From: Nitrospinaceae bacterium | GTDB taxonomy: Bacteria; Nitrospinota; Nitrospinia; Nitrospinales; VA-1 | DNA: 64,000 nt | Reading direction: 5' to 3' | Assembly (NCBI GenBank): GCA_021604505.1 | Contig: BQJC01000001.1 | Span: 1,385,501-1,449,500 of the forward strand | Part shown: positions 25,388 to 29,604 of the stretch, piece after piece | Position numbering within the stretch: the first letter of the stretch is position 1 | Layout: the number at the start of each line of letters is the position of its first letter | Position numbers and translations under genes: made by a program | The notes under the pieces: model-generated | Told to the model about the DNA's origin: nothing | The model's input: only the letters and a program-made list of their open reading frames with translations | The model's database searches: none

Positions 25388-25633
25388 ATGGAAAATGAAA
25401 CGGTGAAGACCATCGAGGGTCGGTTGGAGATTCTCTACAAGGGTGTGATCAGTGAAGAGAACTCGGTGCAGTACTATGAAAGCCTCATCGAAAAAACTTT
25501 CGGCGACGCGGAGGAAGACATCGGCAAGCGGCGTATGTATGAAGATCTCAAGCAGGAAGAAGTGAAGCACGTCGAAAAATTCCGTTCCCTCATTAAGCAC
25601 TGGGAAGAAAAATTGGATGAATTGAAAAAATGA
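25388..25633 (+). CDS. Small two-helix ferritin-like protein
   Basis: The 81-aa protein has two helices bearing ferritin-type residues: a Glu-Glu pair in GVISEENSVQYYESL (residues ~20-34) and EEVKHVEKF with an E..H motif (~57-65). It resembles half of a rubrerythrin-type four-helix bundle, so a dimer would rebuild a di-iron site, as in encapsulated ferritins. That is inference. It sits directly upstream of the iron-uptake operon but is separated by 270 bp and a promoter. No encapsulin gene is visible. Confidence 0.6.
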   Translation: MENETVKTIEGRLEILYKGVISEENSVQYYESLIEKTFGDAEEDIGKRRMYEDLKQEEVKHVEKFRSLIKHWEEKLDELKK

Positions 25634-25760: not shown

Positions 25761-25789
25761 TTGACAAGATTGCCCCCATGAAATAGAAT
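25761..25789 (+). promoter_or_regulatory. Strong sigma70-type promoter of the iron-uptake operon
   Basis: TTGACA at 25761-25766 and TAGAAT at 25784-25789 with an exact 17-bp spacer. The Fur-box match begins one base after the -10 box, so a bound repressor would block RNA polymerase. Confidence 0.7.
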
Positions 25790-25804
25790 TGATAACAATT
25801 CTCA
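25790..25804 (+). promoter_or_regulatory. Fur box (7-1-7 match)
   Basis: TGATAACAATTCTCA matches the Fur 7-1-7 consensus TGATAATnATTATCA at 12 of its 14 defined positions. A partly overlapping perfect palindrome, AGAATTG-N4-CAATTCT, covers 25785-25802. The site lies at the presumed transcription start of the cytochrome c-FTR1 gene and predicts iron repression by the Fur encoded at 54492. Confidence 0.68.
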
Positions 25805-25906: not shown

Positions 25907-28048
25907 ATGAGAAAAAATCCCCGCCCCACCCTGCTGTTGAACGTTTTGATGATCGCCTTGTGTTTTTCCCCGATTCATGCGCAAGCGGCCACGGAATCCC
26001 TGGAAAGCACGATCAAAAAGATCATCATGATGATGAACATCGTCGGTGTCGAGTATGAAGCCGGCATCGTCGATGGAAAAATCGTCAACGCCGCCGAATA
26101 TGAAGAGAGCAAGGTTTTTCTGCAACAGTCGGAGAACCGTTTTAAACGGCTTCCCGCTCCCAAGGCAGGTGCCGAGGCAACGGCCCCTCTCCTTGCAAAT
26201 TTTACCGATCTGGCGGAAAAGATTCAGTCCAAGGTGGATGCCGCGGAAGTCTATGCACTGGTCAATACGATCAATGCGGGCATCAAAAAGGCTTATGACA
26301 TTAAAATCAGCCAGACGCCAGCCAACCCCGTGTCTCTCGCTAACGGCAAAACGATTTTCGAAAACAAATGCGCGGTGTGCCACGGACTGACGGGCAAAGG
26401 CGACGGCCCCATCGCCGCGCAGTTGGACCCGGCTCCTGCCGTTCTCGCCGACCCTCAGCTCACCGGCGACGATCACACGGTGGCTTTCGACAATTTCCAG
26501 GTCATTAACGTGGGCATCGCCAACACCGCCATGGTCGGCTGGGCGGATTTTCTGTCGGAGCAGGATTTATGGGATGTCACTTACTATGTCCGTTCCTTTT
26601 CCAATGAAAACGTGAAGTTGCCATTAATCACGGCGGGCCTCGCCGGCGCGGATGGTGTGAACGAAGGGGACGGTTCCAAACAAGCGGCTGCCGCTGTGGC
26701 CGAATCCCGCAATTTGCTGGACACCAGCCTTGAGATTTTTAAAAAGGGCGATATCCAGACGGCGGCGGACACGGCTTTCGACGCCTACCTCGCCTACGAG
26801 GGGATCGAAGCGGGACTGATCAGCAAAAAGAAGGAACTGGGTCTCCGGCTTGAATCGGCTTTCAGCCGTTATCAGGGAGAAATCAAACGCCAGGCCGCGC
26901 TACCGCACGTTGAAAAAATTCACGCGACCCTGCACACCGATCTTTCCGAGGCACTGGAAATCCTTCAGAAAAAAGTCAGCTTCACCGGGCTGTTCATCCA
27001 ATCGTTTTCCATCATCGTCCGTGAAGGATTCGAAGCGATCCTGATCATTGCCGCGTTGATTGCTTTTCTGGTCAAGTCGCGCAATCAGGATAAATTGAAA
27101 TCCATTTACACCGGCGTGATTCTTGGAATCGTCGGAAGTTTTTTGACCGCCTATGTTGTCCACGAAGTTCTGCATCTCAGCGTGTCCAGCCAGGAATTGC
27201 TGGAGGGCTGGATCATGCTGGTCGCCGTGGTGGTACTGTTCTGGGTCAGTTACTGGCTGGTATCCAAAATTGAAGCCGAGAAATGGCAGTCATACATCAC
27301 CAAAAAAATGAAAACCGCGGTCTCCACCGGAAGCGCCTTTGCTTTGGGCGGCGTGGCCTTTTTGTCCGTTTACCGGGAAGGATTTGAAACCGTCCTGTTC
27401 TACAAAGCGCTTTACTTGTATGCCGGAGAAGGGACCGCAGGCATTATCCCCGGATTCCTTGTCGGGTGCGCCGTTTTGGGCGTTGTATATTATCTGATCA
27501 ATAAGGTGGGGCTGAAGGTTCCGATCAAGTGGTTTTTTGCTTTCACCAGTGTTTTTCTTTACTTCATGGCATTCACATTTATGGGAAAAGGTCTGCACGA
27601 GTTGCAGATGGGGCAGTCGCTGAGCATGACGCAGGCTGACTTTGCGCCGCATATTTCATGGCTGGGAATGTACCCCACGTGGGAAACCTTCATCGGGCAG
27701 ATGGTTCTGGTTCTGGCTTATGTGGCCGCACTGGTATACACCTTCGGGATCAAACCGGAAGTGGAAACCGAACAGCTCAAAAAGGAAACTTCTCATATTC
27801 AAAAAGACATCACCGTGGTGCACGATCTGGTGGAACATATCTCGCATCACGCCAAGCGCTGTGAAATTTTCCTGAAAGACACCAAGGATCAGGATTTGAA
27901 GGAACTTTCCGGGCATCTCAAGGAAATCGACGAGAAAATCCACGAGCTTTTTGACCATGTTTCATTTGTGGAAAACCGGCTTCACGATGAATTTGAAAAG
28001 CTGGGTCAACGAGCCATGCCCGCGGAAGGCAAGAAAGGGCTGTCTTGA
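25907..28048 (+). CDS. Cytochrome c - FTR1 iron permease fusion
   Basis: The protein has 713 aa. A signal peptide ([19 protein letters not shown]) leads into a periplasmic helical part. A cytochrome c domain follows with CAVCH (Cys155, Cys158, His159) and a likely Met209 ligand in TAMVGW. The FTR1 permease has the two REGFE motifs at 372-376 and 490-494 within membrane helices; these Glu residues carry iron in the family. Residues ~637-700 form a cytoplasmic or periplasmic helical tail with HD..EHIS..H...C (His639 to Cys652). FTR1 imports ferric iron coupled to ferrous oxidation, and the fused cytochrome could take the electron. The stop overlaps the next gene by TTGA. Confidence 0.88.
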
Positions 28049-29604
28049 AAATTCGGTTTTTTAAAAATACCCGCAATTTTCACAAATGGATCGGGTTGGT
28101 TTGCGCCGTGTTTTTTATCATCCTTTCCCTCTCCGGCTTCATCCTCATGCATTACGAGGGCTTGGGTTTAAACGAAGTCGAAGTCAGCGGTAAATTCCTC
28201 CCCGACAAATATTTTCAAATCGAATCATCCAAGCGCAGTATTCAGACCATTGCGGCAACCCCGGAAGATTTTATTTACGTAGGCACAGATCACGGTCTTT
28301 ACCGCTCCCAGGATGGCGGAAATACGTGGACGGAACTCAAGGAAGGTTTGTTCCATCAAAATATTAAAATCCTGACCGTAGATCCGATAGAAAGTGGCGT
28401 CATTTATGCCGGAACGCCAGGCGGGATCTTTAAAACCGAAAATGGCGGCGACCACTGGACCGACTGGATCGACGCCGCCAGCGGCCTGTCCAATGCTGAT
28501 GTGAACGATATTGCCATCCACCCCAAAGATTCGGAAAAATTATACGCGGCGACCGAAGGAGGGCTCTTTTTTTCAGAGGATGCCGGCGGGTCCTGGGAAA
28601 TTTTATTTGGCGGGAACGACGCGGAAAAAGGAATCGCCGTGACCCTGGTCCGTTTATCTTCCGTGAACTCAGAGGCAGTCTATATCGGCACCCAAAGCGG
28701 AATGTATCGAAGCGTCGATGCGGGAAAAAACTGGGAACCGGTTTGGAAGGACCAAATTTCCGATGCACTCACAATGGTTTCTTTGAAAACCGAACCTGAA
28801 TTTTTTTACATCGGAACCCGCGACGGTCTTTTTAAATCGTTTAACCAGGGCCGCAATTGGGAAAAAGACAAGCATAAGGAAATAGACGAAGTGTCTTCCC
28901 TGCTTGTGAACCCTGAAGACATTGCCAATCTTACGGTCTCTACGGGGGAAAGGATTCTTGTGTCCCCCGATGGCGGGGATTCATGGGAACAGATCGAGTT
29001 CGATCCGGACCGGCAGTCCACAGGCGCGTCTTCATTCCCGCGGCTCACTGGAATTTACCAGATCGGGCCACCCTCCCCTGTTTTTATCGCCGGGACCACA
29101 TCCGGGTTGTTTCTATCCACCGACGGCGGAAAAAACTGGCAGGAGCAAGAGCTTTCAAATTCTGGAAAACAACCGCAAGAAAGAAAAATGGATTTAGTAA
29201 AACTATTCACGGAGATTCACACCGGTCGATTTTTCGGTTCCTATTTTGTCTTGCTAGTCGATTTAGCCACATTGGGCCTGATCCTGCTGGTCATTTCCGG
29301 AATCTGGGTGGGCATTGCTCGCAAAAAAATGAGGAAGGGGAAAAAAGGACAGCCGGCGGGAGAACTGGAAACCGAATTATTGATCAATGTGCAGGAGACC
29401 GCGGACGATCTTTCCGTCGAAACCCACGAGATCCACGACATGATTGAGCATATCAGCAATCACCTGGAGAAATGCAAATCCGTTTATATGTCGAAAGAGA
29501 AAAAAGAGATCGAGGAAATCGACAGGCACATCACGACGCTGGACAAAAAGATGCATCACTTGATGGAGCGCATCGGTGAGTTTGAAAAATATTCGCAGAA
29601 TTGA
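28045..29604 (+). CDS. PepSY-TM-like protein with BNR-repeat propeller
   Basis: The protein has 519 aa and starts at a TTG that overlaps the FTR1 stop. An N-terminal helix ([20 protein letters not shown]) and a second near residue 400 ([10 protein letters not shown], then [11 protein letters not shown]) match the PepSY-associated helix pair found in iron-related membrane proteins. Between them lies a periplasmic propeller with seven Asp-box type repeats, such as [22 protein letters not shown] and [11 protein letters not shown]. The C-terminal tail contains HD..EHIS..H...C (His464 to Cys477), the same motif with the same spacing as the FTR1 tail. A shared role in iron delivery or reduction is inferred. 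Confidence 0.8.

Follow-up and report, generated by a model that had tools for sequence, protein, structure and literature searches.

A small helical tail domain shared by an FTR1 iron permease and a putative ferric reductase of Nitrospinota, with a probable role in binding iron or bringing partners together at the cytosolic face of the membrane

Several described systems come close to the tail domain reported here. The FeoB-associated Cys-rich protein (PF12669) is likewise a small module with putative iron-binding residues, found either as a separate gene behind feoB or joined to FeoB at its C-terminal end (PMC8749426). It is, however, a membrane peptide with a Cys-rich motif, whereas the tail domain is helical, has His, Asp and Glu as its characteristic residues, and has at most one conserved Cys; the tail domain has no Pfam match to PF12669. 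FeoC is another small cytoplasmic accessory of an iron permease, with an uneven distribution and an unclear role (PMC8749426), but the tail domain also occurs fused to FTR1 and PepSY proteins, and its stand-alone form has no match in Pfam. In yeast, the cytosolic tails of the iron permease Ftr1 and its redox partner Fet3 contact each other (PMC11817551); the yeast motifs are RRGH and YGMM, and we claim no sequence likeness to the bacterial tails. Finally, the cytochrome c/FTR1 family of iron permeases has the same fusion as the permease described below and is about 31% identical to it; with the best plasmid-borne members, from Pseudomonadota, the alignment stops at about residue 599, short of the tail. 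One such tailless permease, on a Sphingobium plasmid, has an ArsR-type regulator on one side and a gene for arsenic resistance on the other (L146 5049-6953).

The window, the whole stretch of 64,000 nucleotides that was analyzed, contains two overlapping genes of an iron operon on the forward strand. The first (25907-28048) encodes an FTR1 iron permease of 713 amino acids with an N-terminal cytochrome c domain and a C-terminal tail (Pfam: PF03239, 1.4e-28; Cytochrom_C, 4.6e-11). Its REGFE motifs lie at residues 372 and 490, and R372-E376, R490-G492 and E494 are invariant among relatives, as is appropriate for an FTR1 permease. The second gene (28045-29604) has a TTG start that overlaps the FTR1 stop by 4 bp, and encodes a PepSY_TM protein of 519 amino acids with a periplasmic BNR propeller and a C-terminal tail (Pfam: PF03929, 1.1e-9, plus a Sortilin-Vps10/BNR match); H13 and H392, which support its place among PepSY_TM proteins, are invariant in 26 relatives. 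Ferric reductase activity is known for a VciB-like PepSY homologue (PMC8238504), and by analogy the PepSY/BNR protein is a putative ferric reductase.

Upstream of the operon, a sigma-70-like promoter (TTGACA-17-TAGAAT, 11 of 12 consensus positions, 25761-25789, forward strand) directly precedes a Fur box, TGATAACAATTCTCA, which matches TGATAATNATTATCA at 12 of 14 positions (25790-25804, forward strand). The promoter is a consensus match, of which three were found in the region with 3.4 expected, but its position immediately ahead of the Fur box sets it apart. By count alone, the Fur box is not above chance in the window; most relatives, however, have such a box about as far upstream of FTR1, and several of these match at 14 of 14 positions. 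Further upstream, an 81-residue helical protein (25388-25633, forward strand) matches rubrerythrin weakly (E = 0.024), contains an ExxH motif and is kept at the same place in nine relatives; it is possibly a half-size ferritin-like member of the same iron locus.

The original prediction, that the two operon proteins share the motif HD-x2-EHIS-x-H-x3-C with an identical His-to-Cys spacing, holds to the residue: the motif occupies FTR1 residues 639-652 (H639, E643, H644, H648 and C652; 27821-27862) and PepSY/BNR residues 464-477 (H464, E468, H469, H473 and C477; 29434-29475), and the spacing is 13 in both. The likeness runs about 30 residues beyond the motif into a second conserved stretch, in which E666, H670, D675 and H679 of FTR1 (27902-27943) correspond to E491, H495, D500 and H504 of PepSY/BNR (29515-29556); in the numbering of our 59-column alignment, the matched columns past the motif are E34, H38, D43, K45 and H47. 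The shared domain is about 55 residues long and is aligned over FTR1 residues 633-691 (27803-27979), where the structural model has a hairpin, and over PepSY/BNR residues 458-516 (29416-29592). We recognize the domain by a profile match together with H16, H38, D43 and H47, all of which were found.

Is the likeness greater than that of any two coiled coils? The two tails match each other with E = 1e-10 (BLASTP), and in the 3.6-Mb genome to which the window belongs, the FTR1 tail matches only itself and the PepSY tail (3.6e-7), with the next match at 0.38. Against a profile built from FTR1 tails only, the PepSY tail scores 35.3 bits, a value reached by one of 25,000 shuffles that preserve its hydrophobic pattern, so that the prospect of tails aligning no better than random coiled coils, which had been raised as a way for the prediction to fail, did not materialize. 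The score falls to 10.7 bits when His and Cys are masked. The tails thus have more in common than a generic coiled coil, and the His/Cys pattern makes up most of the signal. From the pair alone, convergence is conceivable; with the intermediate homologues described below, common descent appears more likely.

Searches of Pfam, NCBIfam and PDB sequences with the tails gave no fitting family and only weak coiled-coil matches. In the genome searches, the matches with E no better than 4e-4 were to UvrB, SMC and similar coiled coils; these, and weak matches to seryl-tRNA synthetase-like proteins, were rejected as chance coiled coils. None of the heme-binding families in Pfam or NCBIfam matches the tail, a plasmid collection contained neither a tail nor a tailed PepSY protein, and the literature searches found no paper on the domain. 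As far as the searched libraries and literature show, the tail domain is undescribed, although the kind of system to which it belongs is known.

Among 81 tail sequences, which are related by descent so that the counts are not independent, H16 and H38 are invariant, and H12 (77/81), D43 (77/81), H7 (75/81) and H47 (74/81) are conserved at 91-95%. The Cys is less general. C20 occurs in 35 of the 36 FTR1 tails from Nitrospinota, in 27 of the 28 PepSY/BNR tails and in 8 of the 9 other FTR1 tails, two FTR1 versions being without it, and is absent from all five short PepSY tails and all three stand-alone proteins. The stand-alone proteins have also lost H7, and two of the three have lost E11.

An AlphaFold2 model of the FTR1 fusion, made with 28 relatives, has low confidence in the membrane part and moderate confidence in the tail (pLDDT about 72), which is predicted to form a hairpin: one helix covers residues 592-656, the other 662-703, and the break falls at 657-661. 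The PepSY model consists of one long helix, with tail pLDDT mostly below 50; in neither model is the fold confident. Independently of both models, the conserved column pairs 7:47, 11:43, 16:38 and 20:34 each sum to 54, which places a turn at column 27, or residue 659, where the FTR1 model has its break. Against a simple random null, such pairing has p = 0.007, or 0.002 if the turn is fixed, for columns chosen after seeing them. Indels between homologues fall in the predicted turn. By helix geometry, two side-chain clusters would lie on different flanks of the hairpin, one made up of H12, H16 and C20 with H38, and the other of H7 and E11 with D43 and H47. Hemerythrin-type iron sites use the spacings HxxxE, HxxxH and HxxxxD. 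The tail domain has these same spacings, but with only two helices; membership of the hemerythrins was rejected, there being no Pfam hemerythrin match and two helices in the tail model versus a four-helix bundle.

Hydropathy and positive charges predict that both tails are cytosolic. The cytochrome c domain of the FTR1 fusion, which lies N-terminal to the helices of the permease, must be periplasmic. The same orientation, N-out/C-in, is reported for yeast Ftr1 (PMC11817551).

Within the phylum Nitrospinota, the tail profile matches 52 of 77 genomes, and the two kinds of tail, FTR1 and PepSY, make up distinct conserved lineages, 64-83% and 20-29% identical, respectively, to the FTR1 tail of the window. 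One tailed FTR1 outside the order (G041) has no CxxCH cytochrome c match. Short tailed PepSY_TM proteins of about 215 residues, without the propeller, are encoded in four genomes of a single family (f9) beside genes for an FMN-binding protein and a porin-like protein. Wherever PepSY/BNR occurs, in 40 genomes, FTR1 is tailed, and PepSY/BNR is absent from all seven genomes whose FTR1 is tailless; eight genomes (one of them a contig-end case) encode a tailed FTR1 but no PepSY/BNR, and in three genomes (G009, G032 and G026) flanking genes on the reverse strand lie closely 3′ of the FTR1 stop. The tail and the PepSY gene thus probably came or went together, in a single piece. In a genome lacking PepSY/BNR (G024), the Cys of the FTR1 tail is replaced by Ser. 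Two genomes of the genus g7 keep an intact FTR1 tail, but in G020 the tail of PepSY/BNR is cut off and in G023 it has lost the Cys (L063 608-1939, L056 1659-3275). In another genome (G005), PepSY/BNR is split, with its start after FTR1 beside a run of N and its tail end about 1.05 Mb away (L139 5496-6215, L052 7309-8049), which is probably an assembly fault.

The domain extends to a second phylum, so that the pair is not without further homologues, the other outcome that would have told against the original prediction. Among 387 sampled genomes, a single confident match lay outside Nitrospinota (G245, 3e-9). In that second phylum, about eleven genomes of one class have a tailed FTR1, which in several adjoins genes for a NapH-like ferredoxin and P19 (PF10634, 8.5e-63), and one genome (G680) has a short tailed PepSY_TM protein beside FeoB and an iron-dependent repressor with a FeoA domain. 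In three genomes of another class, the tail is a stand-alone protein of 81-105 residues, encoded just downstream of a DtxR-like regulator, FeoA and FeoB (FeoB by Pfam). A further sample of 393 genomes around G438 gave no new context. The porin-like and FMN-binding gene cluster occurs in both phyla, with a tailed PepSY in f9 and none in G438 (L133, L134, L136, L162). All confident matches in the sampled genomes lie in FTR1 proteins, in PepSY_TM proteins or directly after FeoB, and the expected recurrence beside FTR1 or in iron proteins is thus borne out.

What might the domain do? Iron binding on the cytosolic side is indicated by its consistent occurrence with three iron-uptake systems, by the Fur box and by the conserved His, Asp, Glu and Cys residues. 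Since it recurs only at iron-uptake genes in the second phylum, the shared domain probably either binds iron or brings partners together on that side. The analysis establishes the shared domain, its conservation, its confinement to iron-uptake loci among the sampled genomes and the conserved Fur box; we infer a hairpin, its cytosolic location, iron as the ligand, a role in hand-off or sensing, and pairing of the tails. The tails would be copies of one small helix-turn-helix domain at the C-termini of inner-membrane iron-uptake proteins, in which H12, H16 and often C20 would face H38 across the hairpin near the turn, and H7 and E11 would face D43 and H47 near the open end. Such a domain would most likely bind iron on its arrival in the cytosol, take over or sense the iron released by the permease, and then hand it on or adjust uptake; matching domains on the permease and the putative ferric reductase may also help the two to associate. 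We lean slightly toward this reading, a cytosolic iron-binding hairpin at the exit of iron-uptake proteins that receives, senses or hands on iron and may aid permease-reductase association. The broader proposal, that it is a portable cytosolic iron-receiving module common to three unrelated iron-uptake systems (FTR1, the PepSY reductase and FeoB), binding iron as it leaves the membrane protein, is more tentative, and we rate it somewhat below even. Counting against an iron-receiving role are the moderate to low fold confidence, the loss of C20, H7 or E11 in some versions, and the dispensability of the tail in the seven genomes with a tailless FTR1; the matched conservation could also serve packing or protein contacts rather than metal.

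Contacts of this kind are the basis of a different explanation, in which the two tails pair as a heterodimeric four-helix bundle that holds permease and reductase together, with His and Cys in the interface. The association of tail and PepSY/BNR (a tailed FTR1 in 40 of 40 genomes with PepSY/BNR, no PepSY/BNR in 7 of 7 with a tailless FTR1) speaks for such pairing, as does the occurrence of C20 in FTR1 tails and in the PepSY tails of FTR1 operons but not in short PepSY tails, and yeast Fet3 and Ftr1 offer a precedent in their interaction via C-terminal cytoplasmic regions (PMC11817551). Because the tail and the PepSY gene are contiguous, however, a single deletion or gain explains the co-loss; for this reason, and because tails also persist alone, we rejected the co-loss as proof of dependence. 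The eight genomes with a tailed FTR1 and no PepSY/BNR, and the FTR1 tails and stand-alone copies of the second phylum, which have no adjoining PepSY partner, also make pairing as the main role rather unlikely. The tail is not only a matched handle between FTR1 and PepSY/BNR, because it is kept in several genomes without PepSY/BNR and is present in other systems.

It is also conceivable that His and Cys bind heme or redox iron at a cytosolic entry site for electrons that feed the PepSY transmembrane reductase, in the position that an NAD-binding domain occupies in other PepSY proteins. PepSY-like proteins have been linked to ferric reduction and to electron transfer across the membrane, and an NAD-binding domain is present in 1077 of them (PMC8238504); moreover, the short tailed PepSY genes adjoin FMN_bind genes. 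Electron entry would not be needed on permeases or after FeoB, however, where the domain also occurs, and with a Cys that is not general and no match to a heme-binding family, we consider this reading very improbable. Heme is in any case the less likely ligand, because the Cys is dispensable in the short PepSY and FeoB-linked versions. Hardly more credible is a structural zinc site or a simple coiled-coil tail unconnected with iron. The tails do match coiled-coil families and PDB coils weakly, and the low-confidence helix of the PepSY model would fit this reading, but the invariant His residues recur at the same places in five architectures, the tail is restricted to iron loci in the sampled genomes, and most of the profile score is lost on masking His and Cys. 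Of the common metal-binding, heme-binding or interaction domain first proposed, then, an uncatalogued domain at iron loci stands, heme has become less likely, and interaction between this pair alone is not supported as its general function.

Finally, we note that little is known of the cytosolic recipients of the iron that bacterial permeases bring in. The tail domain, compact and unannotated, is joined to a permease in one case, to a putative ferric reductase in another and stands free after FeoB in a third, and offers a small soluble protein with which iron binding and hand-off can be tested. In the operon described here, it would bind the permease and the reductase into one unit. If the proposal is true, an iron-receiving module would represent a poorly known step of bacterial iron uptake.
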